DNA of 27,204 bases from a virus: IMG/VR virus record IMGVR_UViG_3300031576_000248, positions 1 through 27,204 of that record; one strand, written 5' to 3'. Positions 2,561-18,462 of the stretch are shown piece by piece. Position numbers and translations under genes: made by a program. The notes under the pieces were generated by a model. That model was not told where the DNA came from, made no database searches, and was given only the letters and a program-made list of their open reading frames with translations. Every line of letters begins with the position of its first letter. Position 1 is the first letter of the stretch.

Positions 2561-2808
2561 GGCCGCGCGCCCCGGGCGCTGTCGTTCGGCCCTTGGCCGA
2601 ACAGCGCGAGCTGCTCGGAGCGGGAAAAATGCTGGCAGGCGGAGGTGTCGCGGGCGCAGGCCATGAACACCCGCGGCGAGCGCGGGTTGCGGCAGCGCTT
2701 GACCGTGCCGCCCTCGACCGGGCGCCAGGCGCCGCAATGGCCGCACACATCGCGCTCGGAGAGGATCAGCGGCTCGGGCTCGGCTAAGGTCTCGGCTGGC
2801 ATGGCCAT
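2557..2808 (-). CDS. Cys-rich small protein, likely zinc binder (83 aa)
   Basis: Begins MAMPAETLAEPEPLILSERD, then VCGHCGAW (C-x2-C), a lone Cys in VKRCRN, and MACARDTSACQHF, giving several Cys and His that could form one or two zinc sites. The C-terminus is low in complexity (GQGPNDSARGARP). Two ATGs at 2808 and 2802 are possible; that at 2808 forms a TGATG junction with the upstream stop, suggesting stop-start reinitiation. Function unknown; small zinc proteins of early operons often bind host proteins or nucleic acid, which is only inference here. Confidence 0.6.
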   Translation of the reverse strand: MAMPAETLAEPEPLILSERDVCGHCGAWRPVEGGTVKRCRNPRSPRVFMACARDTSACQHFSRSEQLALFGQGPNDSARGARP

Positions 2809-3116
2809 CACCCGCGCTCGGCGCCGTGCCGGATCGCGACGCGGCCCGCGCGCACTACGCGGGCCGCGCGCGCGCTCGAGCGGTCCAGCGCGCGGCCGGC
2901 GGCCCTGATCCCGCCCTCGCGAAGCCAGCCCTCGCGGGCGCCAGCGTCGGCGGCCGGCGCCGCGATGCTGAGGATCGCGAGAAAGGCCTGCTCGACATCG
3001 CCGTCGCACGCGAACTCGATCACCAAGCTCGGCCCGCCGCCGCGCCCGGTCCCGCAGGTGGTGCGCGCCACCACACCGGTCCGTCGCGCGAGAACGGATG
3101 ACAATGCTTCTGGCAT
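2808..3116 (-). CDS. First gene of the leftward early operon, hypothetical (102 aa)
   Basis: The protein MPEALSSVLARRTGVVARTT continues with LVIEFACDGDVEQAFLAILSIAAPAADAGAREGWLREGGIRAAGRALD and an Arg-rich end. I do not recognise a family. GGAG lies 7 bases before the ATG at 3116, which is preferred over the in-frame ATG at 3137 because the latter falls closer to the promoter and has no ribosome site. It is the promoter-proximal gene of the operon, about 30 bases downstream of the -10 box, and should be controlled directly by the operator at 3150-3168. Confidence 0.6.
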   Translation of the reverse strand: MPEALSSVLARRTGVVARTTCGTGRGGGPSLVIEFACDGDVEQAFLAILSIAAPAADAGAREGWLREGGIRAAGRALDRSSARAARVVRAGRVAIRHGAERG

Positions 3117-3145
3117 GGCGTTTCTCCGGGAAATCATGGTTGCGG

Positions 3146-3174
3146 ACTATGTAGGCGTTTCGCCTACAAGTCAA
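3146..3174 (-). promoter_or_regulatory. Leftward early promoter (PL-like)
   Basis: On the minus strand: -35 TTGACT (3174-3169), a 17-base spacer, -10 CATAGT (3151-3146). The -35 matches sigma-70 consensus in five of six bases and the -10 in four. The spacer is filled by the 19-bp operator palindrome, so repressor binding would block polymerase directly. Confidence 0.65.
3150..3168. promoter_or_regulatory. Operator OL, perfect inverted repeat TGTAGGC-GTTTC-GCCTACA
   Basis: A perfect 19-bp palindrome (8-bp arms, 3-bp centre). In terms of TGTAGGC half-sites the spacer is 5 bases, the same geometry as the two sites between the repressor and Cro-like genes. It fills the spacer of the leftward early promoter. 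Confidence 0.75.
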
Positions 3175-3192
3175 GCGGAAGATGTGGCCAAG

Positions 3193-3208
3193 TGTTTCAC
3201 GTGAAACA
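3193..3208. promoter_or_regulatory. Exact bacterial parS (ParB-binding) site
   Basis: The 16 bases TGTTTCACGTGAAACA form a perfect palindrome identical to the chromosomal parS consensus first defined in Bacillus subtilis and conserved widely, including in Caulobacter and other alphaproteobacteria. An exact 16-mer is expected far less than once by chance in 27 kb. It lies 18 bases upstream of the leftward -35 box and 26 bases before the nuclease ATG. No parA or parB gene is present here, so binding by host ParB is the inference. Confidence 0.85.
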
Positions 3209-3234
3209 TCGGCGCAATCAGCTACACTTTGGGC

Positions 3235-3825
3235 ATGTGGTGGCTCCGACTGCTCCTAGTCTGCTTACCGGCCGCGGTGAACGCGCAATCCTGGAGCGAC
3301 AGAGATCGCGAATATCCGCCGTTGACCCTCGACGCCTACATTCCCGAGAAATTGCGCTTTGCGGGTCCGGTGCGGGTGATCGATGGCGACACCGTCGACA
3401 TGCAGACGCGCTACGTGCTCGATTTCGCTGGCAAGGAATGGGGCGGCCGCACGGAACGGCTGCGTCTCGCCGCCATTGATGCACCCGAGGCGCGTGAACC
3501 CTTTGGCGCGGCCGCGACGGAACGGCTGCGCACCTATGTCGAGGGCGCCGAGACCCTACGTTGCATCTGCATGCCGGCCAATGGCGCTAACCCGGGCGAT
3601 GGGTGTTTGTATGATCGCTACAAACGGGTAATCGTGAAGTGTGGGACCGATGTTGCCGGGACAATTCGTACCGAGGATGTCGGCCGCGAAATGGTGCGCC
3701 ACGGCCTTGCGCGCGCCCGCTATGGCTGCGACTATGCCGCCGAGCATCGAACCGCGTGCGCCGCCAAGATAGGCTTGTGGGCGGACTGGCGCGGCGATTG
3801 CGAGCCACGCTGCGATTGGCGATGA
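3235..3825 (+). CDS. Secreted thermonuclease-like (SNase-fold) nuclease (196 aa)
   Basis: A staphylococcal nuclease-type domain that would cleave DNA or RNA with calcium. An N-terminal signal peptide (MWWLRLLLVCLPAAVNA) predicts export. The family motifs are present: VIDGDTVD (48-55), RLRLAAIDAPE (75-85) and DRYKR (127-131), keeping the equivalents of the catalytic Arg35, Glu43 and Arg87 and the metal-binding Asp21 and Asp40. The mature part has eight Cys residues, suggesting disulfides in the periplasm or outside. The ATG at 3235 is chosen over TTG at 3229; there is no clear Shine-Dalgarno. A weak -10-like TACACT at 3223-3228 would place the transcript start at or near the ATG, so leaderless translation is possible. 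Placed between the leftward promoter and the repressor, it looks like cargo expressed in the lysogen. Confidence 0.9.
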   Translation: MWWLRLLLVCLPAAVNAQSWSDRDREYPPLTLDAYIPEKLRFAGPVRVIDGDTVDMQTRYVLDFAGKEWGGRTERLRLAAIDAPEAREPFGAAATERLRTYVEGAETLRCICMPANGANPGDGCLYDRYKRVIVKCGTDVAGTIRTEDVGREMVRHGLARARYGCDYAAEHRTACAAKIGLWADWRGDCEPRCDWR

Positions 3826-3832
3826 GGGCGGC

Positions 3833-4009
3833 ATGCAGGAGAAGGAAAAACGCGGCTTGATCGGCCTTGCGGCGTGGGCCGTGATCGGGTTTTTCTTGAT
3901 CGCCGGCATCCAGCAGACCTTGGGCGCCTTCGTGGCCGGGCTTGCCGGATTTGCCTATGTCTTCGCGATCGGCTGGTTCCTCGAGCACGCCCCGGAGTGG
4001 TTTTCCTAG
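3833..4009 (+). CDS. Small two-helix membrane protein (58 aa)
   Basis: Starts MQEKEKRGLIGLAAWAVIGF and contains two hydrophobic helices, roughly residues 9-25 and 31-50, with a short polar turn (GIQQTL) and an acidic end (EHAPEWFS). GAGGG precedes the ATG and the nuclease stop is 7 bases upstream, so the two form a pair. The last four bases (CTAG, 4006-4009) are shared with the end of the convergent repressor gene. A superinfection-exclusion or nuclease-associated membrane role would fit a lysogen-expressed cargo pair; a holin is less likely away from any endolysin. Confidence 0.75.
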   Translation: MQEKEKRGLIGLAAWAVIGFFLIAGIQQTLGAFVAGLAGFAYVFAIGWFLEHAPEWFS

Positions 4010-4713
4010 CCGGCGGGCGGCGTCACCGGGATGGTGACGCTTTCGACGATTCCGAGGATCTCCGCATTGTCTTCCGCGTCGGGCGTGTAGTCGATCGTCC
4101 CGTCCCTGGCGACGGCGCCGCGCTCGCCCGAGGCACTCATTCGCACCGAGATCGAGGCCCCGATCCGCCGATTCCGGGTCTGCAGCACCACGACGATGTC
4201 GCCATTGACCGCGATGTCGAGCAGCCCCACCACCGTTTCGATGGCTTCGCCGGCCGCGCGCGTGCTCTTGAAGTGGCGCGCCACCACCTGCTCGCCGCGC
4301 CGCAGCCGCCGCCCGATGTGCTCGAGGCGGCGATAGACGCCAGCGCTGCCCGGCGGATAGCCGAGGCGGTCGGCGCTGTCGTCGGCGATGAAAAACCCTC
4401 GGCAGTGCTCGGGATTGACCACGGATTTCGGCGCCTCGATGTAGTCTATGCGGCCAGCCGATATGATCCCCTCAACGCTTCTCGCATTCACGAGCACGTA
4501 GCAGAGCACATCAATCCGTAAGGAAAAGCCACCAACCAGATCGCGTGGTGCGACTTCGTAAACTTTCGCGAGCTTCCTGATCCATTTGTCGTTCAACCGC
4601 CGCCGGCCATCCTCGAGTTTGTAGATTTCGCCGCGGTCGCACGGCACGCGCCGCGCCACCTCCGCGACGCTCAGCGCGCGCATCTCGCGAATTTCCTTAA
4701 GCCTGTTTTCCAT
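4006..4713 (-). CDS. Phage repressor: XRE-type HTH with S24-like C-terminal region (235 aa)
   Basis: Residues 3-60 form a typical helix-turn-helix (LKEIREMRALSVAEVARRVP...IYKLEDGRRRLNDKWIRKLAKVYEV). The C-terminal half (from about 105) resembles the S24/LexA dimerisation fold: DDSADRLGYPPGSAGVYRRL, LRRGEQVVARH, then VNGDIVVVLQ. The usual Ser-Met nucleophile motif is replaced by DDSADR and I see no clear catalytic Lys, so self-cleavage is doubtful. It is divergent to the Cro-like gene, with operators of one design at both its own control region and the leftward promoter. The start at 4713 begins exactly at the HTH; the in-frame ATG at 4800 or earlier would run through the operators. Confidence 0.85.
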   Translation of the reverse strand: MENRLKEIREMRALSVAEVARRVPCDRGEIYKLEDGRRRLNDKWIRKLAKVYEVAPRDLVGGFSLRIDVLCYVLVNARSVEGIISAGRIDYIEAPKSVVNPEHCRGFFIADDSADRLGYPPGSAGVYRRLEHIGRRLRRGEQVVARHFKSTRAAGEAIETVVGLLDIAVNGDIVVVLQTRNRRIGASISVRMSASGERGAVARDGTIDYTPDAEDNAEILGIVESVTIPVTPPAG

Positions 4714-4722
4714 GCGCCCTGA

Positions 4723-4750
4723 CTTGTAGGCACACGGTATTGTGCGTAAA
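4723..4750 (-). promoter_or_regulatory. Repressor promoter (PRM-like)
   Basis: Minus strand TTTACG (4750-4745), a 16-base spacer, and TACAAG (4728-4723). Each box has four of six consensus matches, so the promoter is weak, as expected for a maintenance promoter. A half-site TGTAGGC (4725-4731) overlaps the -10 box and the operator at 4750-4768 abuts the -35, which would permit autoregulation. Confidence 0.4.
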
Positions 4751-4768
4751 GCAGGCAAAATGCCCACA
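4750..4768. promoter_or_regulatory. Operator OR2, degenerate AGCAGGC-AAAAT-GCCCACA
   Basis: Matches the TGTAGGC-N5-GCCTACA design with 5/7 in the left arm and 6/7 in the right, spacing exactly conserved. It sits just upstream of the rightward -35 box, its centre about 32 bp from that of the stronger site at 4779-4803. Confidence 0.55.
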
Positions 4769-4772
4769 TCTA

Positions 4773-4802
4773 TTGACATGTTGTGGGCCATCCGCCTACA
4801 AC
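4773..4802 (+). promoter_or_regulatory. Rightward early promoter (PR-like)
   Basis: TTGACA (4773-4778, perfect -35), an 18-base spacer, then TACAAC (4797-4802, four of six for -10). The expected start near 4809 leaves a leader of only about 10-20 bases before the Cro-like gene. Operator OR1 covers the whole spacer and the -10 box. Confidence 0.65.
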
Positions 4803-4803
4803 A
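4779..4803. promoter_or_regulatory. Operator OR1, inverted repeat TGTTGTGGGC-N5-GCCTACAACA
   Basis: Ten-base arms with one mismatch around a 5-base centre, the same arm core and spacing as the operator at 3150-3168. It overlaps the spacer and -10 box of the rightward promoter, so repressor bound here should shut off the Cro-like gene and replication operon. Confidence 0.7.
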
Positions 4804-4817
4804 CGCGAAAGCTAGTG

Positions 4818-5069
4818 ATGCTGGTTGACATGCGCGACCATTCCCCTCTGGCCGACTACCTCGACGACAAGAACAAGTCCGAGTTCGCGCGTCGGCTGGG
4901 CTTTCGCCACACTCAGGCGCTGTTCGACTACCTCCCGCGACGGGACGGCCGCCCGCCGCGCCGGGCGATGACCGCTCAGCTCGCCCGCCGCATCGTGGCG
5001 CTGACGGGCGGCGACGTTGACTATAACGCACTGTTCGGCCCGATCCCGTCGCAGAAGGCCGCAGCCTGA
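4818..5069 (+). CDS. Cro-like HTH regulator (83 aa)
   Basis: A short protein whose centre (KSEFARRLGFRHTQALFDYL) has the spacing of a helix-turn-helix, followed by RRAMTAQLARRIVALTGGDV. Divergent to the repressor and first in the rightward early operon, it is best read as the Cro counterpart that lets the lytic programme proceed. Two starts are possible, ATG 4818 or ATG 4830; neither has a good Shine-Dalgarno and the promoter lies very close, so a short-leader or leaderless start is likely. The stop overlaps the next start as TGATG. Confidence 0.75.
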   Translation: MLVDMRDHSPLADYLDDKNKSEFARRLGFRHTQALFDYLPRRDGRPPRRAMTAQLARRIVALTGGDVDYNALFGPIPSQKAAA

Positions 5070-5218
5070 TGTACACCGTCAACCTTCGCAAGATGCAACG
5101 CCGGCAGCGCGGCTACGCGTCCGGCCCCGGCAAGGTGCGCGGCGGCAACAGCGTGTGCCAAGAGCGGCAATCGCCGCCGCCGAACAAGCGCGCCGCCATC
5201 AACGCCGGCGTGCGCTGA
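5069..5218 (+). CDS. Tiny basic hypothetical protein (49 aa)
   Basis: Starts MYTVNLRKMQRRQRGYASGP and is rich in Arg, Lys and Gly, ending RAAINAGVR. No family recognised; the charge would suit nucleic acid binding. It is joined to the Cro-like gene by a TGATG overlap (5067-5071) and followed 2 bases later by the next ATG, so it sits in the coupled chain of the replication operon. Confidence 0.5.
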   Translation: MYTVNLRKMQRRQRGYASGPGKVRGGNSVCQERQSPPPNKRAAINAGVR

Positions 5219-5220
5219 CC

Positions 5221-5490
5221 ATGCCCCGCCGCGTCTTCGCCTTCGACAGCCTCTTGCGCACCGATTGGCCGTGGATTGTGTTCGACCGCGACGGCCACGC
5301 CCAGGCCCGGGGGCCGACGCGGCTCGGCGTGATCGTCCGCCACCAGAGAGCGGAAGGTTGGTGCCATCATCGGAAATTCGCGATGGTCAAAAACCTTTCG
5401 ACCGGCGAGATCTGGGATCGCATCAACGGCTCGTGGAGCCGGCGCGCCGTCCCCCCGGCGCCGCCCAAGCGGCGGGCGGTGCCGGCGTGA
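5221..5490 (+). CDS. Hypothetical protein (89 aa)
   Basis: Starts MPRRVFAFDSLLRTDWPWIV and looks like a small beta-rich domain (WPWIVFDRDGHAQARG...FAMVKNLSTGEIWDRINGSW) with a basic Pro-rich tail. Three Trp residues and a repeated strand-turn pattern suggest a folded protein, not a shadow frame. The stop overlaps the following GTG start (GTGA, 5487-5490). No function assigned. Confidence 0.6.
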   Translation: MPRRVFAFDSLLRTDWPWIVFDRDGHAQARGPTRLGVIVRHQRAEGWCHHRKFAMVKNLSTGEIWDRINGSWSRRAVPPAPPKRRAVPA

Positions 5491-5681
5491 GCTATCTCGA
5501 TCTCGACGAGTCGGCGCGGGCGGCGTTCCTCGCGCGGCAGTTAGCGGCCCGCGATCCGATGCGGAAAGACCGCGCCGGGAACGGTCCCACCTATCTCGAG
5601 ATGACGCCCGCCGAGCGCCGGGCGTTGCTCGCGCGCCAGCAAGAGCGGCGCTGGCGCGACATCGCCGGCCCGCCGGCATGA
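5487..5681 (+). CDS. Small hypothetical protein, GTG start (64 aa)
   Basis: Two similar stretches are visible: SYLDLDESARAAFLARQLAA and TYLEMTPAERRALLARQQER, each an aromatic-Leu, acidic or turn residue, then an amphipathic Arg/Ala/Leu helix. This internal duplication argues for a real helical protein. The start is the GTG that overlaps the previous stop; the end overlaps the next gene as ATGA. No function known. Confidence 0.6.
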   Translation: MSYLDLDESARAAFLARQLAARDPMRKDRAGNGPTYLEMTPAERRALLARQQERRWRDIAGPPA

Positions 5682-5893: not shown

Positions 5894-6327
5894 AGCCGGC
5901 CGCGCCGGAGCGCGACCTTGTCGGCCCGCGCGGGCGTCGAACCCTGCCGCCGCGGCGCCTGGCGCTGCGCGAGAAGATCGCGTTCGCCGGCGAACGCGGG
6001 AACGAGATCCGCATCTACGTCACCGCCGGCTTCGACCCCGAGACGCTCGATCTGCTCGAAGTGTTCATCCGCCCGCGCGGCAACGTCGACACCGATCTCT
6101 GCCGCTATTTCGACGACGTGGGCGTGCTGATCTCGCGCTGCCTGCAGTTCGGCGACGCGGTCGAGGCGATGGCCGACGGCATGGGGCGCCTGCCCGGCCA
6201 TGATGGCCGCCGCGCGCACTCGCCGATCGGCGCCATCGTCGACGCGCTCGCGGCACTCAGCCGGGACATCCGACGCACCGGCACGATGCCGCTCGAACGC
6301 GCGCAGCGCGAAGCCGCGGCGCCATGA
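5890..6327 (+). CDS. TSCPD-domain protein (145 aa)
   Basis: Residues about 39-120 (IRIYVTAGFDPETLDLLEVF..., DTDLCRYFDDVGVLISRCLQFG, MADGMGRLPG, SPIGAIVDAL) match the TSCPD pattern: a beta-strand pair, an aspartate-rich helix with VLIS-LQ-G, then the SPIG-VLD ending. TSCPD is known from the C-terminal part of B12-dependent ribonucleotide reductase and as stand-alone proteins in phages and rhizobia, where it may bind nucleotide or metal; the stand-alone function is not established. The GTG start at 5890 is set by the overlap with the previous stop. Next to primase and helicase genes, a link to DNA synthesis is plausible. Confidence 0.75.
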   Translation: MKPAAPERDLVGPRGRRTLPPRRLALREKIAFAGERGNEIRIYVTAGFDPETLDLLEVFIRPRGNVDTDLCRYFDDVGVLISRCLQFGDAVEAMADGMGRLPGHDGRRAHSPIGAIVDALAALSRDIRRTGTMPLERAQREAAAP

Positions 6328-7484
6328 TGGTCGACATCGCCGTGATCGTCCGCGGCCTCGCCGGGCGCATCGAGAGCCTCGCGCGCGAGCTCATGCCGGC
6401 GGGCCGCAAGGAAGGGGCCGAGTGGCGCGACGCCGACGCGCCGGCGGGCAAGGGATCGAGCCTCTACGTGCATACGAGCGGGGCCAAGGCCGGCGTGTTC
6501 TCGCATTTCGCGGCCGGCGTGAGCGGCGACGCCCTCGATCTCGTCGCCTACGTGAAATTCGGCGGCGACAAGAAGCAGGCCTATCATTGGGCGCGCGCGT
6601 GGCTCGGGCTGTTCGATGCCAATGAGGGAAAGGCGCGCGCTGCGCGCCCGTCGCCAGCGCAGATGCCGCCGACCGCGCTGGCGAGCACACCGAGCGAACA
6701 GGAAGAAGCCCGCCGCAAGCGCCAGCGCGCGCTCTCGGGCTTCCTCGCCGCGCAAGAAAGCATCGTCGGCACCGCCGCCGAGTGGTATCTCCGGGCGCGC
6801 GGCATCGAGCTCGCGCGGCTCGGCCGCCAGCCCGGCTGCCTCCGCTTCGATCCGGCCTGCGCCTACCCGCAAAAACTGTATCCGCCCAGCGGGCATTTTC
6901 CCGCGCTGATTGCGGCCATCACCCAGCCCGACGGGACGCTCTCCGGCCTCCACTGCACGTTCCTCGAGGTCCACGCGCTCGGCCGCGCCGGCAAGCTCGC
7001 CACCGTGCCCAAGGCCAAGCTCGTGTTCGGCCAGCAGCGCGGCGGCCTCGTGCGCCTCTGGAACGGCACCATGACCAGCGAGGAGACCGGCGAGATCAAG
7101 GCCGCGCCCAAGCTCGGCGAACTCGACGCGCGGAAAGCCGGCCTCGCCGCGCGCGGCTGGCATGGCCCGGCGCTCGAGGAGATGCACCTCGCCGAGGGGA
7201 TCGAGGACGGGCTCACGCTGCCCATGGAACGGCGGGAATGGCGCGTCGCCGCGGCCATCAACATCGGCAACATGTCGCGCGTGCGCCTGCCCGAGGCCAT
7301 CCGCCGCGTCGTGATCTGGAAGCAGAACGATCCCGCGACGAATAAAGCGGGCGCCGCGCACCCGACCATCGGCGCGATGAACAAGGCGATCTGGTGGTTC
7401 CGCGGCCACGGCAAGTGCGTCGAGATCGCGACGGTGCCGAAGGAGTTCAAGGACGTCAACGAGTACTGGCGGGGCGTCGCGTGA
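6324..7484 (+). CDS. DNA primase-like protein with TOPRIM domain (386 aa)
   Basis: An N-terminal region (residues 42-95: KGSSLYVHTSGAKAGVFSHF..., GDALDLVAYV) resembles the core preceding the TOPRIM domain in phage primases; the CHC2 zinc finger is absent. The TOPRIM part shows EGIEDGLTL with Glu291, AAINIGNM, then VVIWKQNDP (330-337), followed by conserved VPKEFKDVNEYW. The usual DxD metal pair is QND here, so the first Asp is lost. It should make primers or assist the adjacent helicase. The ATG at 6324 overlaps the previous stop, and its stop overlaps the next GTG start. Confidence 0.8.
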   Translation: MMVDIAVIVRGLAGRIESLARELMPAGRKEGAEWRDADAPAGKGSSLYVHTSGAKAGVFSHFAAGVSGDALDLVAYVKFGGDKKQAYHWARAWLGLFDANEGKARAARPSPAQMPPTALASTPSEQEEARRKRQRALSGFLAAQESIVGTAAEWYLRARGIELARLGRQPGCLRFDPACAYPQKLYPPSGHFPALIAAITQPDGTLSGLHCTFLEVHALGRAGKLATVPKAKLVFGQQRGGLVRLWNGTMTSEETGEIKAAPKLGELDARKAGLAARGWHGPALEEMHLAEGIEDGLTLPMERREWRVAAAINIGNMSRVRLPEAIRRVVIWKQNDPATNKAGAAHPTIGAMNKAIWWFRGHGKCVEIATVPKEFKDVNEYWRGVA

Positions 7485-8050: not shown

Positions 8051-9874
8051 ATGCCCCGCGCCGCCGCGCGCCCGACCGCGTCGTTGGCCGACATTCGCGG
8101 CGCCGCGGTCGAGGTAGCACCCGCCGGCCCGCTCCTCGCCGGCGATCCCGGCAACCCGCTGGGCAGCATGCGCCCGCCGCGCGGCCTGCCCGAGGGCTGT
8201 CTCGTGCAGGCGCTCGGCCACAAGAGCCTCGAGATTTTCTTCTTCATCGGCGCCGACCGCTCGTTCAAGGCGATCCGCGACCGCGATTTCACGCAGAACA
8301 AGATGCTGGCGCTCTACGGCGGCAACGACGATTACCTCGAGACGACCTGGCCGCGCATCGGCGCCAAGGGCAAGCCCACCGGCCTCGACACCGTGCGCTG
8401 CTATTCCGACCACATGGCCGAGTGCGTGCGCATGGGCCATTGGGATCCCTCCAACCGGATGCGCCAGAGCGGCGGCTGGCGCGAGCCCGACGGCACGCTG
8501 GTGCTTCACTGCGGCACCATCATCGTCGCCAAGGCCTTGAACGGCGCCGAGGCCACGCGCGAGCCGGGCCGCCACGGCGATTTCGTCTACGCCAAGGGCG
8601 AGGCCCAGCCGCGGCCTTGGCCCGACCGCGTCGCCGCCAAGGCGATGGCGCCGCTGCTCGAGGGCTTCGCCACCTTCGCGTGGAAGCGCGGCGAGCTCGA
8701 CGCGATGCTGCTGCTCGGCTGGTGCGTCGCCGGCATTCTCGGGGGTGCCCTCAAATGGCGGCCGCTGGTGTGGGTGACCGGCGACAAGGGCACCGGCAAG
8801 AGCACCTTGCACGAAATGATCGAGCACCTGTTCGGCGGCGCGCTGGTGCATGCGTCCGACACTTCGGCCGCCGGCATCTACCAGGCGTTGAAATTTTCCT
8901 CGTGCCCGGTCACCATCGACGAGATGGAGGCCGCCGAGGACAACCGCCGCGCGCAGATGGTCATCCAACTGGCCCGGCAAGCCTCAAGCGGCGGCCTCGT
9001 GCTGCGCGGCGGCCAGGACCATTCCGGCGTGGAGTTCATCGCGCGCTCGCCGTTCCTGTTCTCCTCGATCCTGCGGCCGCCGCTGCTGGCGCAGGACATG
9101 TCGCGGATGGCGCTGCTCGAGCTCGACGAGTGGAAAGGCACGTCGCACGGGCTCGACGCCGACGCGCTGCACGCGCTCGGGCGCAAGCTGCGGCGCCGCA
9201 TCCTCGACGCCTGGCCCGGCTGGGAGGAGCGGCTCGAGCGCTGGCGCCAAGGCGTGAAGGGCGCCGGCCACAATGACCGCACCGCGGATCAGTTTGGCAC
9301 CTTGCTCGCCGGCGCCGACTTGGCGCTGCACGACCGCGTGCCGCACGCCGACAACGTCGACGAGGCGATCGCGCGCTATGGGCTCGAGCACCTGGCCGAG
9401 CAGGCCGACGATTTGCCCGACTGGCAAAAGATGCTCGACCACGTGCTGACCGTGCCGACCGACATTCCTCGCAGCGGTAGGCGCGTGAACGCCGCCCAAC
9501 TGCTCGAGCTGAGGCTCGCCCGCACCGTCACCGCGACCGAGACCGACGCTGCGCAGCGCGATGCAGCCGAGCGCGATCTCGAAAGCATCGGGCTCAAGGC
9601 GCTGCGGAAAGAGGGCCTCTGGTGGCTGGCCGTGGCGAACAACCACCAAGGCCTCGCGCGCCTGTTCGAGACCCCTACCCGTTCGCATTGGGCCGGGCGC
9701 AGCGGCACCGTCGGCGTGTGGGTGCAGGCGGCGCGGCGCGTGCCGGGTGCCATTTGGGACAACCAGGTGCTGCGCTTCAACGGAGCACCGGTGCGCGTGA
9801 CGCTGATTCCGCTCGCGCGCGTGCTGCCCGACGAGCCGGCGCCGCTCACCGCCGCTGGCGCGGATCCCGCCTAG
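8051..9874 (+). CDS. Phage replicative helicase, P-loop ATPase (607 aa)
   Basis: A large protein with Walker A GDKGTGKST (244-252) and Walker B VTIDE (287-291) in the middle, a possible sensor segment SPFLFSSIL after about 45 residues, and a C-terminal half with HNDRTADQFGTLLAG, a pattern seen in phage and plasmid DUF927/D5-type replication ATPases. The N-terminal 200 residues have repeated aromatic motifs but no polymerase signature I can see. It starts 3 bases after the methyltransferase stop and ends the rightward early operon; the primase-like gene upstream completes a primase-helicase pair. Probable role: unwinding at the phage origin. Confidence 0.8.
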   Translation: MPRAAARPTASLADIRGAAVEVAPAGPLLAGDPGNPLGSMRPPRGLPEGCLVQALGHKSLEIFFFIGADRSFKAIRDRDFTQNKMLALYGGNDDYLETTWPRIGAKGKPTGLDTVRCYSDHMAECVRMGHWDPSNRMRQSGGWREPDGTLVLHCGTIIVAKALNGAEATREPGRHGDFVYAKGEAQPRPWPDRVAAKAMAPLLEGFATFAWKRGELDAMLLLGWCVAGILGGALKWRPLVWVTGDKGTGKSTLHEMIEHLFGGALVHASDTSAAGIYQALKFSSCPVTIDEMEAAEDNRRAQMVIQLARQASSGGLVLRGGQDHSGVEFIARSPFLFSSILRPPLLAQDMSRMALLELDEWKGTSHGLDADALHALGRKLRRRILDAWPGWEERLERWRQGVKGAGHNDRTADQFGTLLAGADLALHDRVPHADNVDEAIARYGLEHLAEQADDLPDWQKMLDHVLTVPTDIPRSGRRVNAAQLLELRLARTVTATETDAAQRDAAERDLESIGLKALRKEGLWWLAVANNHQGLARLFETPTRSHWAGRSGTVGVWVQAARRVPGAIWDNQVLRFNGAPVRVTLIPLARVLPDEPAPLTAAGADPA

Positions 9875-9944
9875 CCTCGAGCGCCTCAAGCGCCAGCGCG
9901 ATCGCGCGCGGCACCGGCGCGCGTCGCGGAAATCCTCGGCTTTT

Positions 9945-10439
9945 TCATTCTCTGCCGTCCTCGGCCTGCTCGACGGCGTCGGCCGCCGCTTCCATCCACT
10001 TGGCCGCCTCGCCCGGCGCCGCCGGCTCGATCCAATCGATCTCGCACAGCACCTGCTGCTCGGCCGGGTCCATGCCGTCGGCGACGTAGACCATCCCCGA
10101 TACGGTGTCGGCCGGCTGGTCCTCCGCCAGCGGCGATCCGTCCTCGCCGCACATCACGATCCGCGCCACGAAGCGCGGCGGCAGCGCATGCACGACGTAG
10201 TAGCGTTCGCCGGCGGGGCCGCGGCCGACGATCCATTCGTCGCGCGGCCACGGCCCCGGCGCCATGCCGCCGGAAAGCTCGTCGAAGCGCGCCGCGACCC
10301 AGGCTGGCGCCTCGCCGGCCTCGAGCCAGCGCCGGACCTGGCGCGGCTCGACGCCGAGACGGCGCGCGATCGCCGACTTCCAGCCGACCGCGCTTCGGAG
10401 CAGCGCGATCGAGGCGCGCGTGAAATCGTCGATCGTCAT
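9945..10439 (-). CDS. HTH-containing protein of the accessory operon (164 aa)
   Basis: The N-terminus (residues about 5-50: FTRASIALLRSAVGWKSAIARRLGVEPRQVRRWLEAGEAPAWVAARF) is a convincing helix-turn-helix of the kind found in phage regulators. The rest has beta segments (ERYYVVHALPPRFVARIVMC) and a strongly acidic, Ala-rich C-terminal helix (EAAKWMEAAADAVEQAEDGRE). It is the last gene of the leftward three-gene operon, overlapping its upstream partner by ATGA, and converges with the helicase across a 70-base gap with nothing notable. It may regulate its own operon or the late genes; DNA binding is inferred. Confidence 0.7.
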   Translation of the reverse strand: MTIDDFTRASIALLRSAVGWKSAIARRLGVEPRQVRRWLEAGEAPAWVAARFDELSGGMAPGPWPRDEWIVGRGPAGERYYVVHALPPRFVARIVMCGEDGSPLAEDQPADTVSGMVYVADGMDPAEQQVLCEIDWIEPAAPGEAAKWMEAAADAVEQAEDGRE

Positions 10440-10621
10440 TGCCGGGCGGTTTCCAACGCAGCGGCCACGCGCACGAACGCTTGCCGCGCCGCATCGTGGT
10501 CGGCTTCATTCCATTTCGAGCGGCCGGCATCGCGCATGGATTTGTTGCCGGCATCCCACCCGGTGGCGTGGGCGGTGCGGTAGGTGGCGGGCGACAGGAA
10601 AGGATTGGGGCACTCGATCAT
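10436..10621 (-). CDS. Small hypothetical protein (61 aa)
   Basis: Starts MIECPNPFLSPATYRTAHAT, then GWDAGNKSMRDAGRSKWNEADHDAARQAFVRVAAALE, a helical, polar protein typical of small phage accessory genes that recur without known function. The stop overlaps the HTH gene's ATG. A GGATAGGT sequence precedes the ATG as a moderate ribosome site, and the upstream gene ends 10 bases before. Confidence 0.65.
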   Translation of the reverse strand: MIECPNPFLSPATYRTAHATGWDAGNKSMRDAGRSKWNEADHDAARQAFVRVAAALETARQ

Positions 10622-10631
10622 GACCTATCCC

Positions 10632-11171
10632 TCACTCGGCCTGGAGCCGGAAGCCGCGCGCGGAAAGGTTCTTCCGAATATCGTGCGATCGCAGCACCCC
10701 GACCGGGCGCGGCGGCGTCTTGTCGCTGCGGAAGCACGCGCCACCCATCTCCATGTGGATCGTCGCGAAGCTGCCCTTCACGGTGACCGCCACCCCTACG
10801 GCCGTGTATTCCTTGGCGCGCGGGTGGGCCCGCGTGCCGCTCCATTCGAGCCACGTAACGGTGCAGCCCTCGCGCCGCTCGCCCGCTGCCTTGGGCGCCG
10901 CCTTCCGCGCCGCGATGGCCGCCCTGAGCGCGCGGCGGCAAGCGTACACGTCGAGAAGATCGTAGTAGTCCACGCGCGCGGCGTAGGCGCCGACGTGATG
11001 CCATTCGCCGCTATGCACGGCGGCCTTGATGTCGGCGGCCACGACGCCCTTGAACAGGCCCTTGGCGCGCAGCGTTTCGGCCATCCCGGTGGCCGGGTAA
11101 CGGCCCTCGCGCTCGGCCTGGCGCGCGTTCAAGGATTTCGAATTCGTGTTGCCGGAATACATGGTTGACAT
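10632..11171 (-). CDS. First gene of the leftward accessory operon, hypothetical (179 aa)
   Basis: Not recognised. The N-terminal half (MYSGNTNSKSLNARQAEREG..., FKGVVAADIKAAVHSGEWHH, YYDLLDVYACRRALRAAIAA) looks helical; the C-terminal half (VTWLEWSGTRAHPRAKEYTAVGVAVTVKGSFATIHMEMGG) is beta-rich, so two small domains are likely. A perfect AGGAGG 5 bases before ATG 11171 gives a strong start. The operon direction opposes both the replication and late genes, so it is a separately controlled accessory unit, with the palindrome at 11218-11233 as candidate operator. Confidence 0.7.
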   Translation of the reverse strand: MSTMYSGNTNSKSLNARQAEREGRYPATGMAETLRAKGLFKGVVAADIKAAVHSGEWHHVGAYAARVDYYDLLDVYACRRALRAAIAARKAAPKAAGERREGCTVTWLEWSGTRAHPRAKEYTAVGVAVTVKGSFATIHMEMGGACFRSDKTPPRPVGVLRSHDIRKNLSARGFRLQAE

Positions 11172-11217
11172 GGCGGCCTCCTTGACCTGCCGGGCGGGCG
11201 TGATCGCCCTTCCCTAT

Positions 11218-11252
11218 GACCTAGGCTTAGGTCTTTTAGCTTGGCGTGTCAA
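11218..11252 (-). promoter_or_regulatory. Candidate promoter/operator of the accessory operon
   Basis: On the minus strand a perfect -35 TTGACA (11252-11247) lies upstream of the palindrome GACCTA-GGCT-TAGGTC (11218-11233), which falls where the -10 should be. No good -10 is visible (TAAGCC at 17-base spacing), so the promoter is weak or activator-dependent. The palindrome differs from the TGTAGGC operators and would need another regulator, possibly the HTH protein at 9945-10439. Confidence 0.5.
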
Positions 11253-11380
11253 GTCACGAATTGTTTCAGCGGCAGCGCCACGCTGGCCGCTCGATCACCC
11301 TCGCGCTCCCTCGGCGCCGCCGCGCGCCTCGCATCCCGACCTTGTTTTGATGAAGGTGTTACGCGCGCTACGCCCGCTAC

Positions 11381-11404
11381 AAGGCCGACGTAGCGGCCTT
11401 TTCC
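11381..11404 (+). terminator. Possible weak intrinsic terminator
   Basis: AAGGCCG (11381-11387), a 6-base loop, CGGCCTT (11394-11400), then TT, giving a run of four T. The stem is 7 bp and the T-run short, so termination would be partial. It lies beside the GCTACG repeats. Confidence 0.3.
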
Positions 11405-11429
11405 GTTATCAAACAATGAGATAAGCACG

Positions 11430-11515
11430 CTGCTACGCTCGCTACGCCGCCGGACGCACGGTCGCGCGCGCGCACGCGCGAGGCGTGTGCGTAGCGGGCG
11501 TAGCGAGCGTAGCAG
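11430..11515. repeat. 19-bp perfect inverted repeat made of GCTACGCTC-type units
   Basis: Left arm 11430-11448 (CTGCTACGCTCGCTACGCC) and right arm 11497-11515 are exact reverse complements separated by 48 bases. Each arm contains two copies of the 9-bp unit. A further unit GGGCGTAGC overlaps the right side. Confidence 0.85.
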
Positions 11516-11549
11516 ACAGTATAAAGGTATGAGATCATTCGATTGACCC

Positions 11550-11588
11550 GCTACGCTCAAGGCCTCTCTTGCTACGCTCGCTACGCTC
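11550..11588 (+). repeat. Direct 9-bp repeats GCTACGCTC (iteron-like)
   Basis: Exact copies at 11550-11558, 11571-11579 and 11580-11588, the last two in tandem; another exact copy is at 11432-11440, an inverted exact copy at 11505-11513, and variants (GCTACGCCC, GCTACGCCG) at 11367-11375 and 11441-11449. The pattern resembles iterons bound by a replication initiator. Confidence 0.8.
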
Positions 11589-11962
11589 AAGCGCTAAATA
11601 TGCCCCGGAAATCCTGTTCAGGGACGGTTTCAGGGCGGTATCGGGATGGTTTGCGGCCACGGCGGCGGCGGGAAATTCTCGGGGCGCGGCCGACCTCGGG
11701 CAGCTCCGCGCCAGGCGCAGGGCGATCGGGCGCGTTATTCGGCCAACGTCGCGGCTAAGCCTTTGACGTTGCTCGCGCGAGCCGCTGATGGCGCAGCAGC
11801 GGCGCGCGCCGGATGGGACCCGCGCGACCCGCGCTTGCCCCCCGCGACCGCCGCCCGCGCGCCCGGCGCCCCTTTCACCGCCAACGGGGTGTTGTTCCTG
11901 TTTGGGTTCTCGAAGCGGAAAAAAAACGATCATAGGCAAGGGTCGGGGACGGGGTGCGGGCG

Positions 11963-12535
11963 ATGGTGACCAAGTCCGCGGCCAAGCGCGTGGCGGAGGC
12001 GGCGCTGCTGCGGCTGGGCCCGGCGCAGCTTTCGATGCTGCCGGGATCGGCGGCGACCGTGACCTACACGGGGCGGTCGGGCCGGCCGAAGGGCCGCAAG
12101 AACAACGCGACGCTGATCGCCGAGGCGCAGCTCGACGTGTGGGGCGAGAAGCTGCTGCGCGAGGGTGCCCGCCTCGGCCTCATCGACCCGATCGTGGAGG
12201 CGCGCCGCCGCGTCGCCGAAATCTATCTGCTCGACGAGAATGCCAATCCCAACACGGTGCTGCATCGCGAGGTCGACAAGGACGGCAACGTCTACCAGGA
12301 GGTGACCCTCGCCGAATTGGTGCTCGAGGTCTCGAAGCACTTCGACGGCTTGAAGGCCACCGAGCGCAAGAACGCGCTGCCCTTCGTGCGCCAGAAGATG
12401 GCGCAGTCGATCGACATCACCGAAAAGCACATCGTCGAGATCCGCCAGGTGCGCATGGACGATGACGGTCTCGGCGACGCCGCCACGCGCGCGAAGAACA
12501 TCACGCCGCCGAAACCGGACAAGGAGACGATGTAA
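11963..12535 (+). CDS. Putative terminase small subunit / DNA-binding protein (190 aa)
   Basis: Begins MVTKSAAKRVAEAALLRLGP; residues about 38-50 (TGRSGRPKGRKNNA) contain an AT-hook-like GRPKGRKN stretch, common near the start of phage small terminases and related DNA-binding proteins. The remainder is helical (LIAEAQLDVWGEKLLREGARLGLIDPIVEARRRVAEIYL). It lies one small gene upstream of the large terminase, the normal place for the subunit that recognises the packaging site. I chose ATG 11963; a GTG at 11954 is also in frame. The stop overlaps the next start (TAATG). Confidence 0.65.
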   Translation: MVTKSAAKRVAEAALLRLGPAQLSMLPGSAATVTYTGRSGRPKGRKNNATLIAEAQLDVWGEKLLREGARLGLIDPIVEARRRVAEIYLLDENANPNTVLHREVDKDGNVYQEVTLAELVLEVSKHFDGLKATERKNALPFVRQKMAQSIDITEKHIVEIRQVRMDDDGLGDAATRAKNITPPKPDKETM

Positions 12536-12762
12536 TGCGCTACGTCGACAAGAGATTCGGCGCGGCGGCGACGGTACCGCTCAAGGCCGCGACACGCGCG
12601 CCGGGCGATCTCGTGATCCGCCTGCCGAAGGCGGGAATCGCGATCATATCCAAAACGCGCAGCCTGTACGAGGCGCAGTTCCACGAGGTGTGCGCGCGCG
12701 TGGGCAGTTCGAGCCCGACGAAGCGTGCCGGGGCGCGGCCGCGCGGCGTGAGGGCGCTATGA
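12535..12762 (+). CDS. Small basic hypothetical protein (75 aa)
   Basis: Starts MRYVDKRFGAAATVPLKAAT, continues APGDLVIRLPKAGIAIISKTRSLYEAQFHEVC and ends in a basic tail. The start overlaps the previous stop (TAATG) and the stop overlaps the terminase start (ATGA). Not recognised; its place between the two terminase genes suggests an auxiliary packaging or DNA-binding role. Confidence 0.6.
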   Translation: MRYVDKRFGAAATVPLKAATRAPGDLVIRLPKAGIAIISKTRSLYEAQFHEVCARVGSSSPTKRAGARPRGVRAL

Positions 12763-14438
12763 CCGCTCCCACCATCGTCGAAACCATCGCCGGCCCCGAT
12801 CCGCAGCGCTCGCCGGTGCTGGCGAAGTTCTTCAAGCATTGGCCGGCGCCGTGCCCCGCCATCTGCGGCATCGAGGGGCCGACCGGGTCGGGCAAGACCG
12901 GCACGCTGTTCCGCAAGATGTGGCGCCTCGCGCAGCGCATGCCGGTGTCGCCGGTCGACAAGATGCGCCATTTCAAGATCGTCTCGCTCGCCACCACCTA
13001 CCGCCAGCTCTGGCGCGGGCCGATCCCGTCGCTGCTCGAGCTGTTGCCGCGGCACTTGGGCGACTGGCACGGCTCGCCGCCCGACAGCCCCGCCACCCAC
13101 GACATCGTCACGCGCTGCCCCCCCGTTCGCGACGCGAACGGCAGGGAAATCGAGCCGGCCAGCAAACTCCGCTACCTCCACGAGTTCGTCGCGATCGGCG
13201 AGAAGTATGCGAGCGAGGAAGAGCTCGAGACGATCTTCCGCGGCTGGCCGGCGACGGTGTTCCACCTGGTCGAGGCCGACACCTTGCCGGCGCTGGTGCT
13301 CAATTTCGCGATCAGCCGCTCGGGGCGCTATCCCGCCGTCAAGCACGGCCTCCCGCCCTGGTATGGCGTGGTGTTCGATTTGAACGCTCCCAGACAGACG
13401 TCGTGGATCTACGGCAAGATGCGGCGCGAGTGGGCCGAGGGGAAGGAATATTTCGTGCAGCCGCCGGCGGTGCTGCCCAACGGCACCGGCGGCTGGCGCG
13501 TCAACCCCGAGGCCGAGAACGTGGCGAACCTCGTCCCCGGCAAATACGAGGGCGAGATCGCGACCCAGTCCGATCGCTTCATCCGCCGCATGCTCGCCGG
13601 TCAGCGCATGCCCGACATGCGCGGCAAGCCCGTCTACGGCTTCTACACCGATCCCGAGACCGGCAACACCGCCGGCCATTTCGACGCCCACCGCCACATC
13701 GCCAAGGACGACATCCAGCCGATCAAGGGCGTGCCCCTCTGGTTCGGCACCGATGGCGGCCGCCAGCCCGGCGGCGCCTTCGGCCAGATCGACCCGCGCA
13801 CCGGCCAGGTCCGCGTGCTCGCCGAAATTCTCACCAGCCACGGCACCGGCGAGAAGCGCTACGCCGAAGAGGTGCGTGCCGTGCTCGCGCGCCCGCCGTT
13901 CGACGGCAAGTGGAAGCCCCAGGACATCCAGGGCGGCGCCGATCCTTCGTGCTTCTTCGGCCGCGACGACAAGAAGGGCGAAGGCGATTGGGCGTTCGCG
14001 TTCGAGCGCGAAAGCCGGATCGTGCTCCGCCCCGGCGGCGGCATCGGCAACAAGCTCGCACCCCGGCTCGAAGTGCTGGCCAATCTGCTCGCCGCACCCG
14101 ACGTGGCGCCTGGCATGCCGAAATTCATCGTCTCGCGCGCGTGCGCGTTGATCATCGAGGGCCTCGAGGGCGCCTACCGCTACCGCCAGAAGCAGATCAA
14201 CACCGAGCACGCGCTGTTCGAGGACGAGCCCGAGAAGAACGATCATTCGCACCTGATCGAGGGCCTGCAATACGGGCTCTTGCGCGTGCTCGGCAGCGAC
14301 GCGGCGTGGGGCAAGTACGACACGGGCGAACGCGCCCGCGGTCCCCGCGCGTCGATCACCGAGAACAACGAGGATGGGCGCTGGATCAATCCGAATCCGC
14401 GCGGGCGAAGCGGTGCCCGCGCTCACCGGACGGAGTAG
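12759..14438 (+). CDS. Terminase large subunit (559 aa)
   Basis: The packaging motor ATPase and nuclease. Walker A is GPTGSGKT (40-47). A Walker B-like strand VVFD ends at Asp207, without the usual adjacent Glu, so the exact ATPase residues are uncertain. The nuclease half shows Asp332 in FGTDGG, Asp395 in GGADPS and Asp495 in NDHSHLIEGLQYGLL, the spacing of the RNase H-like terminase nuclease. Length is typical. GAGGG and an ATGA overlap set the start. Together with the portal it would fill preformed heads. Confidence 0.85.
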   Translation: MTAPTIVETIAGPDPQRSPVLAKFFKHWPAPCPAICGIEGPTGSGKTGTLFRKMWRLAQRMPVSPVDKMRHFKIVSLATTYRQLWRGPIPSLLELLPRHLGDWHGSPPDSPATHDIVTRCPPVRDANGREIEPASKLRYLHEFVAIGEKYASEEELETIFRGWPATVFHLVEADTLPALVLNFAISRSGRYPAVKHGLPPWYGVVFDLNAPRQTSWIYGKMRREWAEGKEYFVQPPAVLPNGTGGWRVNPEAENVANLVPGKYEGEIATQSDRFIRRMLAGQRMPDMRGKPVYGFYTDPETGNTAGHFDAHRHIAKDDIQPIKGVPLWFGTDGGRQPGGAFGQIDPRTGQVRVLAEILTSHGTGEKRYAEEVRAVLARPPFDGKWKPQDIQGGADPSCFFGRDDKKGEGDWAFAFERESRIVLRPGGGIGNKLAPRLEVLANLLAAPDVAPGMPKFIVSRACALIIEGLEGAYRYRQKQINTEHALFEDEPEKNDHSHLIEGLQYGLLRVLGSDAAWGKYDTGERARGPRASITENNEDGRWINPNPRGRSGARAHRTE

Positions 14439-14795: not shown

Positions 14796-14822
14796 GTGTT
14801 CTGCCTGTTGCAAGGCCCACTG

Positions 14823-14851
14823 GCCGGCGAGGGCCCCCGTCCCTCGCCGGC
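14823..14851. promoter_or_regulatory. Strong hairpin upstream of the pre-portal gene
   Basis: GCCGGCGAGGG (14823-14833), a 7-base loop and the exact complement (14841-14851) give an 11-bp GC-rich stem ending 23 bases before the ATG at 14875. No T-run follows. It may stabilise or process the late mRNA, or act as a partial terminator. Confidence 0.65.
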
Positions 14852-14874
14852 ACTCCTTTGGCGAAGGACCGCCG

Positions 14875-15090
14875 ATGAGTTTCATCGCCCGCGCGCTCGG
14901 CATCGGCAACACACCGGATCGTCCGGCGCCGATCGCGGCGCCGTCGCGCGCCGACCCCGCGGTCGAGGACGCGCGCCGCCGCGAGATCGTCGCCGCCGGC
15001 AAGTTGAAGGGCGCCGGCGCCAATTATCTCACCAGCGGCACCGATCTCGGCGAGGCACCGGCCGCGCGGAAATATCTCACTGGCCAGTAA
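14875..15090 (+). CDS. Small pre-portal protein (71 aa)
   Basis: Starts MSFIARALGIGNTPDRPAPI, then a charged helix (DARRREIVAAGKLKGAG) and ends NYLTSGTDLGEAPAARKYLTGQ. Small proteins with the same plan (charged helix, then a Leu-Thr-Gly-rich segment ending in a TLLG/YLTG-like tail) commonly precede the portal gene in podoviruses; their role is not defined. AAGGA precedes the ATG, and the stop overlaps the portal start (TAATG). Confidence 0.7.
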   Translation: MSFIARALGIGNTPDRPAPIAAPSRADPAVEDARRREIVAAGKLKGAGANYLTSGTDLGEAPAARKYLTGQ

Positions 15091-16727
15091 TGCCCGACCT
15101 CTCCCCCCAAGATTTGATCGACGCGACCGACGCGCTGATGGGCGAGCGGCGGCCGTGGGAGACGGGCTGGCGCGAAGTGGCGAGTTACATGCTGCCCGAC
15201 GGGCCCGACTTCAACCAACAGGACGTTCCCGGAGCGCAGCGACGGGACCTCATCGTGTCGAATTTCGGCGAGACCGCGCTTGAGGAAGCGGCCGACGGCC
15301 TCATGGGCCTCGCCTGCATGCCCGGGACGCGGTGGAAGGGCCTGTCCGTGGGAGCGCTCCCGGAAGACGCCCACGACGAACGCGTCTGGCTCGAGGACGC
15401 CAACGACCGCATGCTCGCGGTCTACGACAATCCCGCCAGCCGCTTCATCCCGGCGATCAAGGCGCTGGCGCTCGAATGGTTGGGCTTCGGCACCGGCGCG
15501 CTGTTCCTGAACGGCCGGCCCGGCCGCCTGCCGATCTTCGAGCACCGTCCGCTCGCCGAGATCGCGGGCGCCGAAGGCGAGGACGGCTTCATCGACGAGA
15601 CCTGCTGGTTCTTCAAATGGCCGGCGAAGAAGGCCTATCAGCGCTGGGGCGAGGCGCTGCCCAAGAATATCCTCGACGCCGCGCTCGATCCCCGGAAGCG
15701 CCACGAGCCGTTCGAGTTCCGCCACTACGTCTACCCGCGCCTGGACTACGACGGCGCGAAACGCGACGCGCGCTCGCGGCCTTACCGCGAATGCTGGCTG
15801 GCGCTCGCCGACAAGTCTCTGATCGAGGAAGGCGGCTTCTTCACCAACCCCTACATCGTCGGCCGCACCGGGAAGCGCGGCTGCTGGGCCTATGGCCGCG
15901 GCCGCGGCGTGAAGGCACTGGGCAACATCAAGATGCTGCAGCGCGTCGCGCGGTCGACCATCCAGGCCGCCGAGAAGACCATCAACCCGCCGACCCAGAG
16001 CCCCGACGACGGCGTGATGGGCACGCCCGATCTCCGCCCCGGCATGGATAACCCGGTGCGCCCGGAATATTTGATGCGCAACGCCGGCATCCAGCCGATC
16101 ACCACCGGCGCCCGCCCCGACATCGGCATGGACTTCATGGAGTGGGTGAAGCAGGCGGCGGGCGATCCCCTTCTAAGGAAAGCCCTAAGTTTGCCCCGGG
16201 AACCGCGCATGCTCGTCGACCAGGTCATGGCGATCGAGGAAGAGGCGATGCGCGCCGCGTCTCCCATCGTGGGAGAATTCCAGACCGAGATCCTGGGGCC
16301 GATGGACGGAAGGCTGTTCGATATCATCGCCCGCGACCGCGGCTTCGCGCCGTGGCCGGACTCGCTCGCCGGCGCCGAGATCCAGCCGCAATTCGAGGCG
16401 CCCGCCGCGCGCGCCCGCAACCTCGGCGTCGTGCGCGCGATCGCCAACCGCAACGCGATCATGGGCCCGGTGTGGCAGGCGCAGCCCGAGCTCATGGACC
16501 TCCACGATTTCGAGCGCGAGGAGCGCACCATCGGCCAGATCCTCGGCATCCCCGCCGATCTCTACCGCGCCCCCGAGGTCTACGCCGCGATGCAGAAGGC
16601 GCGCGCCGAAGTGGCCAAGCAGCGCGAAGAGCGCGAGGCGCTGAAGGACGACACCACGGCGCTCAAGAACGCGACGCCCGCGCTGAGCCTCATCCAGGGC
16701 GGGAAGCAGGAGGAGGCGGCGGCGTGA
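15090..16727 (+). CDS. Portal (head-to-tail connecting) protein (545 aa)
   Basis: Matches the podovirus head-to-tail connector type: an opening helix (LIDATDALMGERRPWETGWREVASYMLP), LMGLACMPGTRWKGL, a central segment FGTGALFLNG, then WAYGRGRGVKALGNIKMLQRV and PGMDNPVRPEY, with a helical C-terminus ending in Lys/Glu-rich repeats. Twelve copies would form the portal ring through which DNA enters and leaves. Size is typical. The start overlaps the upstream stop and the stop overlaps the GTG of the Bbp19-like gene. Confidence 0.9.
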   Translation: MPDLSPQDLIDATDALMGERRPWETGWREVASYMLPDGPDFNQQDVPGAQRRDLIVSNFGETALEEAADGLMGLACMPGTRWKGLSVGALPEDAHDERVWLEDANDRMLAVYDNPASRFIPAIKALALEWLGFGTGALFLNGRPGRLPIFEHRPLAEIAGAEGEDGFIDETCWFFKWPAKKAYQRWGEALPKNILDAALDPRKRHEPFEFRHYVYPRLDYDGAKRDARSRPYRECWLALADKSLIEEGGFFTNPYIVGRTGKRGCWAYGRGRGVKALGNIKMLQRVARSTIQAAEKTINPPTQSPDDGVMGTPDLRPGMDNPVRPEYLMRNAGIQPITTGARPDIGMDFMEWVKQAAGDPLLRKALSLPREPRMLVDQVMAIEEEAMRAASPIVGEFQTEILGPMDGRLFDIIARDRGFAPWPDSLAGAEIQPQFEAPAARARNLGVVRAIANRNAIMGPVWQAQPELMDLHDFEREERTIGQILGIPADLYRAPEVYAAMQKARAEVAKQREEREALKDDTTALKNATPALSLIQGGKQEEAAA

Positions 16728-18307: not shown

Positions 18308-18462
18308 GGGGTTCCCTGTCCTGGCGGCACGGTCAGCCGCCCGCACCAGGTGCCGCGTGAGAGCACTAGCCGAGGGTCCGTGATGGTGGCTGCGTAACCG
18401 CAGTCAGATTTCGGCGGGCAACCCCAGCGATCCGGTTCAACCGTTTCGTGGGGGTTTCCCCG
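18308..18462 (+). promoter_or_regulatory. Structured leader of the major capsid gene
   Basis: GGGGTT (18308-18313) can pair with AACCCC (18420-18425) to close a domain of about 115 bases. Inside, GGCTGCG-TAAC-CGCAGTC (18388-18405) makes a stem-loop, and 18320-18356 can form three mutually exclusive stems (CCTGG/CCAGG, GGCGG/CCGCC, GCGGCAC/GTGCCGC). A final GGGG-TTT-CCCC hairpin (18451-18461) covers the likely ribosome site one base before the ATG. This may tune capsid translation; no known riboswitch class is recognised. Confidence 0.4.

Follow-up and report, generated by a model that had tools for sequence, protein, structure and literature searches.

The chromosomal partition protein ParB binds its target site, parS, closes on the DNA as a CTP clamp and slides, and ParA and SMC act on the DNA so loaded (PMC12704722). 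The idealised consensus parS of ParB work is the 16 bp sequence TGTTTCACGTGAAACA (PMC7383237), and the two parS sites of the alphaproteobacterium Hyphomonas neptunium are identical to it (PMC7022226). Two precedents for the use of another replicon's ParB are described, each of them a single system: the phi29 genome is trapped in Bacillus spores by way of the host ParB, Spo0J (Meijer et al. 2005, as cited in PMC9437464), and the parS mimics of SGI1 hijack the parABS system of the IncC plasmid and so stabilise SGI1 (PMC10954446). In a related strategy, alphaproteobacterial phages use host CtrA sites (PMC9437464). A full-text literature search found no report of host parS as a general feature of phages.

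A consensus parS between divergent phage genes

The window (the whole stretch of DNA that was analysed) is an entire linear virus record of 27,204 bases with 68% G+C. It encodes portal, capsid and terminase genes and apparently comes from a podovirus-like, temperate-looking phage; it is treated as a partial genome, having no end repeats and structural genes that continue up to its end. The features referred to below are as follows.

2808–3137, minus strand: first ORF of the leftward operon; function not assigned, no Pfam or PHROG match
3146–3174, minus strand: leftward sigma70-type promoter; −35 TTGACT (3174–3169), spacer 17, −10 CATAGT (3151–3146); 9 of 12 matches, 0.3 expected
3150–3169, no strand: operator-like inverted repeat TGTAGGCGTTTCGCCTACAA in the spacer of the leftward promoter; probable phage repressor operator
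3193–3208, no strand: parS-identical palindrome TGTTTCACGTGAAACA; predicted loading site of host chromosomal ParB, by consensus match
3222–3227, plus strand: weak −10-like TACACT immediately upstream of the nuclease ATG, where a leaderless start is possible; below the promoter-scan threshold
3235–3825, plus strand: staphylococcal-nuclease-like gene (PF00565, E 1.6e-8) with N-terminal signal peptide MWWLRLLLVCLPAAVNA, read by eye
4006–4713, minus strand: HTH (XRE-type) repressor (PF13560, E 7e-10; PHROG repressors)
4782–4801, no strand: second operator-like site TGTGGGCCATCCGCCTACAA, between repressor and cro-like gene; similar copy of 3150–3169
4818–5069, plus strand: small cro-like ORF divergent from the repressor, named by position alone; no family match
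6324–7484, plus strand: DUF7146/Toprim_3 primase (profile match)
12759–14438, plus strand: terminase large subunit (TerL; tblastn to annotated TerL)
14796–16727, plus strand: portal (head-tail connector; PF12236, E 7e-71)
18448–19359, plus strand: major capsid protein (PF19821, E 2e-51)

At 1392–1799, an ORF matches several long PHROG families (phrog_6628 among others; E as low as 2e-33), all of unknown function, over their C-terminal ∼100 residues.

The palindrome at 3193–3208 is identical to the consensus chromosomal parS, and its symmetry ends precisely at the edges of the 16-mer, where the flanking g and t are unpaired. It lies in a 97-base gap between divergent genes, with the leftward operon (from ATG 3137) and its repressor-type promoter on one side and the gene for the nuclease, which is predicted to be exported, on the other (from ATG 3235); its surroundings are thus phage genes on both sides and not the parAB/oriC vicinity of chromosomal parS. 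It is the sole site with three or fewer mismatches in the 27,204-base window, and just 3 of 100 dinucleotide shuffles of the window contain any site within three mismatches. Exact copies expected from composition number 4.1e-7 (zero order) or 5.8e-7 (first order), lower still than the chance of about 1e-5 or less that the first-pass annotation had estimated when it called the palindrome an exact chromosomal parS consensus, an identification that agrees with the published sites (PMC7383237; PMC7022226). The distances it gave are also correct: 18 bases (3175–3192) separate the site from the leftward −35, and 26 bases (3209–3234) from the nuclease ATG. It had seen no parA or parB, and profile searches of the 27,204-base record, a partial genome, likewise found no ParB (PF02195), ParA (PF13614) or tyrosine integrase (PF00589). 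A role of the palindrome as an RNA hairpin or terminator was considered and is unlikely, since both predicted starts are downstream of it and nothing there resembles a terminator.

The leftward promoter is the only promoter-like sequence that a promoter scan found in 2700–5300. The operator-like repeat in its spacer is 80% identical to the copy at 4782–4801, and both of these probable repressor operators have the form TTGTAGGC-N-GCCTACAA (TGTAGGC..GCCTACA). Because the spacer palindrome recurs in the gap between the repressor and the cro-like gene, the leftward operon is probably under phage repressor control; parS, upstream of the −35, is an element separate from this repeat. The presence of a palindrome in the control region of a temperate-looking phage might suggest that the 16-mer is the operator of a phage-encoded regulator and equals parS by coincidence, but the phage's own operator-like repeat has a different sequence at both 3150 and 4782, parS occurs once and is not in the repressor-cro gap, and no ParB-fold protein is encoded in the record, so that this explanation seems very improbable.

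The main rival reading is that the site acts chiefly on its neighbors. Host ParB bound at parS, or spreading from it, would repress the leftward promoter and/or the nuclease gene and in this way tune the lysogeny switch or the nuclease cargo to the host ParB level or the cell cycle. Such a role accords with the short distance to the −35 of the leftward promoter, which has an operator-like palindrome in its spacer, and, given TACACT as the −10, the −35 region of the nuclease gene would overlap parS; moreover, Pseudomonas aeruginosa ParB represses promoters beside parS3/parS4 (PMC5521831). On the other hand, control of the leftward promoter needs no more than the operator-like repeat, the −10 of the nuclease gene is weak, and the genes near parS differ widely among the viruses discussed below. 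We regard local regulation as the main role as possible but not probable.

The nuclease gene looks like cargo adjoining the control region, and tblastn found no homologue of it in cultured phages. In one other parS-bearing virus stretch (L002), a staphylococcal-type nuclease gene likewise lies ∼430 bases from parS.

Relatives and probable host of the phage

Single-protein searches with the primase and the capsid protein found no close relatives of the window phage. In capsid protein, its best relatives are 49 and 47% identical to it (two contigs from a single Pseudomonadota MAG), followed by one at 41%; the best have only structural genes in common with the window, and none of them has its nuclease, repressor or primase region. 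These best genome relatives, all of them distant, lack the site, as do prophages with 29–36% terminase identity. A parS within one mismatch is missing from all 49 virus records selected by capsid protein, and the circular Bradyrhizobium phage NZ_CP094518 (26% TerL identity) has none within three; no relative that lacks the site is close, and none has the window's control region. The absence of the site from all relatives found, its single occurrence in the window, and the look-elsewhere effect that comes with a scan for many motifs in many windows would all fit a coincidental or recently host-derived 16-mer that is functionless in the window phage.

Bacterial genomes holding capsid-related phages of this kind carry parS-like sites in ten cases of ten (exact in six), which makes the host side plausible. 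Of six alphaproteobacterial genomes that hold distant relatives by terminase, three have exact sites in pairs ∼1.4–2 kb apart, always on contigs other than the one with the terminase match. The statement of the first-pass annotation that alphaproteobacteria use this consensus is in keeping with these exact copies on alphaproteobacterial chromosomes that carry distantly related prophages. The host of the window phage is probably an alphaproteobacterium.

Host-type parS sites across IMG/VR viruses

The exact 16-mer is present in at least 120 IMG/VR stretches, as is a second natural parS, TGTTCCACGTGGAACA (also at least 120), whereas scrambled palindromes of the same half-site composition have 3 and 5 matches (the one with 5 retains the TTCACGTGAA core); chance thus accounts for at most ∼4% of such sites. 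Together with the minute number of copies expected in the window (4–6e-7), the intergenic position of the site there and the end of its palindrome at the ParB footprint, this scarcity of scrambled matches makes a chance or relic origin improbable for the window site.

Among the matches listed, the stretches with the exact site fall into 69 groups that are unrelated at the DNA level (11 clusters comprising 62 contigs, and 58 singles), and 67 of 146 parS sites (46%; p 1e-30) lie outside ORFs of at least 60 codons, which cover 91% of the DNA in parS-bearing stretches and leave ∼9% intergenic; six of the eight scrambled control sites are inside such ORFs. More than one site within two mismatches is found in 27 of the 120 listed stretches, and the additional copies among these matches are mostly exact or are variants known from chromosomes, for example TGTTTCACGTGGAACA and CGTTTCACGTGAAACA. 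The genes adjoining parS in the listed matches are viral, including terminases, phi29-type encapsidation and capsid proteins, and connectors, and the genomes include pelagiphage-, phi29- and microvirus-like kinds. The occurrence of parS in viruses that lack ParB is well above chance, in support of the first-pass reading of the window site.

The microvirus-like contigs with parS encode an F capsid protein, a scaffold protein and a replication protein; three of them, 4.4–6 kb long, have one exact site each (L006 at 3842, L026 at 1966 and L076 at 2536). A phi29-like contig, L010, has exact sites at 5525, 5551 and 12130 and a one-mismatch site at 12154. On a 116-kb "viral" contig with ParA and integrase genes (L087), twelve parS, mostly the TGTTTCACGTGGAACA variant, lie within 5 kb (8906–13878); this array may be a host or plasmid centromere or belong to a phage-plasmid. 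L087 and L116 look like clustered centromeres, and some of the IMG/VR stretches may come from host or plasmid genomes. Contamination by host chromosomes was judged insufficient to account for the whole set, as ParB and ParA genes are rare in it and the flanking genes are viral, though single contigs such as these two may be contaminants.

The largest parS group is related by its terminase to pelagiphages such as HTVC027P (64% identity). In at least 14 of its contigs, all chosen for having the site, parS lies 17–127 bases upstream of TerL (L007, L019, L027, L029, L042, L066, L083, L093, L097, L101, L119, L120 and others), a placement that also fits local regulation. Perfect conservation of the site among these contigs was dropped as evidence because they had been selected for an exact match, and viruses selected by terminase were used instead. 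Eighty viruses were picked by terminase alone, and the 400 bases upstream of the gene were scanned in the 71 with enough sequence there. The site was exact in 9 of the 71 and present with at most one mismatch in 11, a fraction that leans upward because the terminase query alignment came largely from parS-bearing contigs; 200 shuffled palindromes gave no exact or one-mismatch match in the same regions. Most positives belong to the clade closest to the query, and the distribution is patchy, with parS absent from many close terminase relatives. The cultured phage HTVC027P has an intergenic one-mismatch site, CGTTTCACGTGAAACA, at 16412, and exact parS occurs in three of five Pelagibacteraceae genomes. 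A second phage group, with ∼28% TerL identity to the pelagiphage-like family, has three to five exact parS upstream of its terminase (L017 2657–3444, L044 10535–11462 and L053 240–961).

Among the matches listed there are 49 long parS-bearing records besides the window, and in these, as fragments that can miss genes, ParB (PF02195) is not found in 45, ParA (PF13614) in 48 and tyrosine integrase in 41. Since most parS-bearing records have no integrase, stable partition of lysogens is unlikely to be the general role, and across viruses this argues for a role of parS that is not just lysogen partition. The frequent lack of an integrase and the inclusion of apparently virulent kinds (pelagiphage-, phi29- and microvirus-like), for which lysogen partition is no option, are what would be expected if phage parS served in lytic growth as a decoy that titrates ParB, or loaded SMC, and thereby upset host segregation or protected and organised the phage DNA. 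A cell contains hundreds of ParB molecules, however, so one site per genome would be a weak sponge, and the window phage looks temperate; for the window site we consider a decoy or disruptive role slightly less probable even than a chance or relic origin.

Proposed role and comparison with known systems

The reading that we favor, and hold about as firmly as we doubt it, is that the 16-mer is a genuine parS that would load host ParB, most likely to tether or segregate the phage DNA, with the adjacent promoters possibly silenced. The first step alone, recruitment of host ParB to the window site, is likely, and loading at 3193 is to be expected of a host ParB with the common specificity. During infection or lysogeny, the chromosomal ParB of the host would nucleate at the phage parS and form CTP clamps that slide on the phage DNA, and the clamps would then link the phage genome to the host ParA/SMC segregation machinery. 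The main payoff would most likely be that phage DNA is retained and evenly segregated as long as it is extrachromosomal or dormant; a local effect, secondary but probable, would be weaker transcription from the leftward promoter and at the nuclease start, next to which clamps would sit. Binding and clamp loading of ParB, like tethering and silencing, are all deduced here from DNA sequence. The first-pass interpretation is partly supported, and the plasmid-like lysogeny, ParB sequestration and silencing that it put forward are hypotheses. A role at the level of the genome is preferred to control of a single gene because the neighbors of parS vary, and it is this variation together with the phi29 and SGI1 precedents that favors tethering or segregation of unintegrated DNA. 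Counting against the favored reading are the absence of the site from the relatives found, its uneven presence within the family examined most closely, the incompleteness of the record, the frequent lack of an integrase in parS-bearing records, the probable share of host or plasmid DNA in such clusters as L087 and L116, and the single site here, where many chromosomes and the phi29-like contig L010 have several.

For the wider set, our confidence is as evenly divided that tailed and ssDNA viruses, mostly without a detected integrase, have repeatedly and by convergence come to carry host-type parS without ParB, a strategy that would recruit ParB clamps, and perhaps SMC, to infecting genomes in lytic or dormant infection, and of which the window phage would be one case. 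If this is true, many unrelated viruses exploit a protein at the core of chromosome segregation by means of a 16 bp address, phage biology is linked to work on the ParB CTP clamp and SMC, phages that have neither integrase nor partition genes gain a route of maintenance, and parS is a sequence mark by which such phages can be found.

The window site is the same 16-mer as in the chromosomal ParABS systems of Hyphomonas neptunium and Caulobacter, but it is on a phage, single and away from parA and parB. With P1, some mycobacteriophages and other phage-plasmids that have their own ParABS, the window phage has in common a centromere-like site on a phage; unlike them, its site is of the host type, and its 27,204-base partial record has no ParABS of its own. 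The likeness to the CtrA-site phages is that a host cell-cycle DNA-binding protein would be borrowed by way of its binding sites, although CtrA is a transcription factor and the window contains no full CtrA site. The phi29/Spo0J case is closer, in that a ParB-less phage places its genome through host ParB, and the phi29-like contig has three exact sites; phi29, however, is virulent and its host forms spores, whereas the window phage is temperate-looking, high in G+C and probably alphaproteobacterial. SGI1 is likewise a mobile element with parS copies and without a cognate ParB, and the 27-kb record shows just this arrangement, a copy of another replicon's parS with no ParB to match; SGI1 uses a plasmid ParB and has been tested experimentally, whereas the window site matches chromosomal ParB and is a prediction from sequence. 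With phi29 and Spo0J, and SGI1 and the IncC ParB, as precedents, the exploitation of host ParB, which the first-pass annotation thought would be a notable strategy, has forerunners. The window parS would be a case of foreign parS mimicry; of greater interest is the broader pattern, in which unrelated viruses carry parS and mostly no detected ParB.
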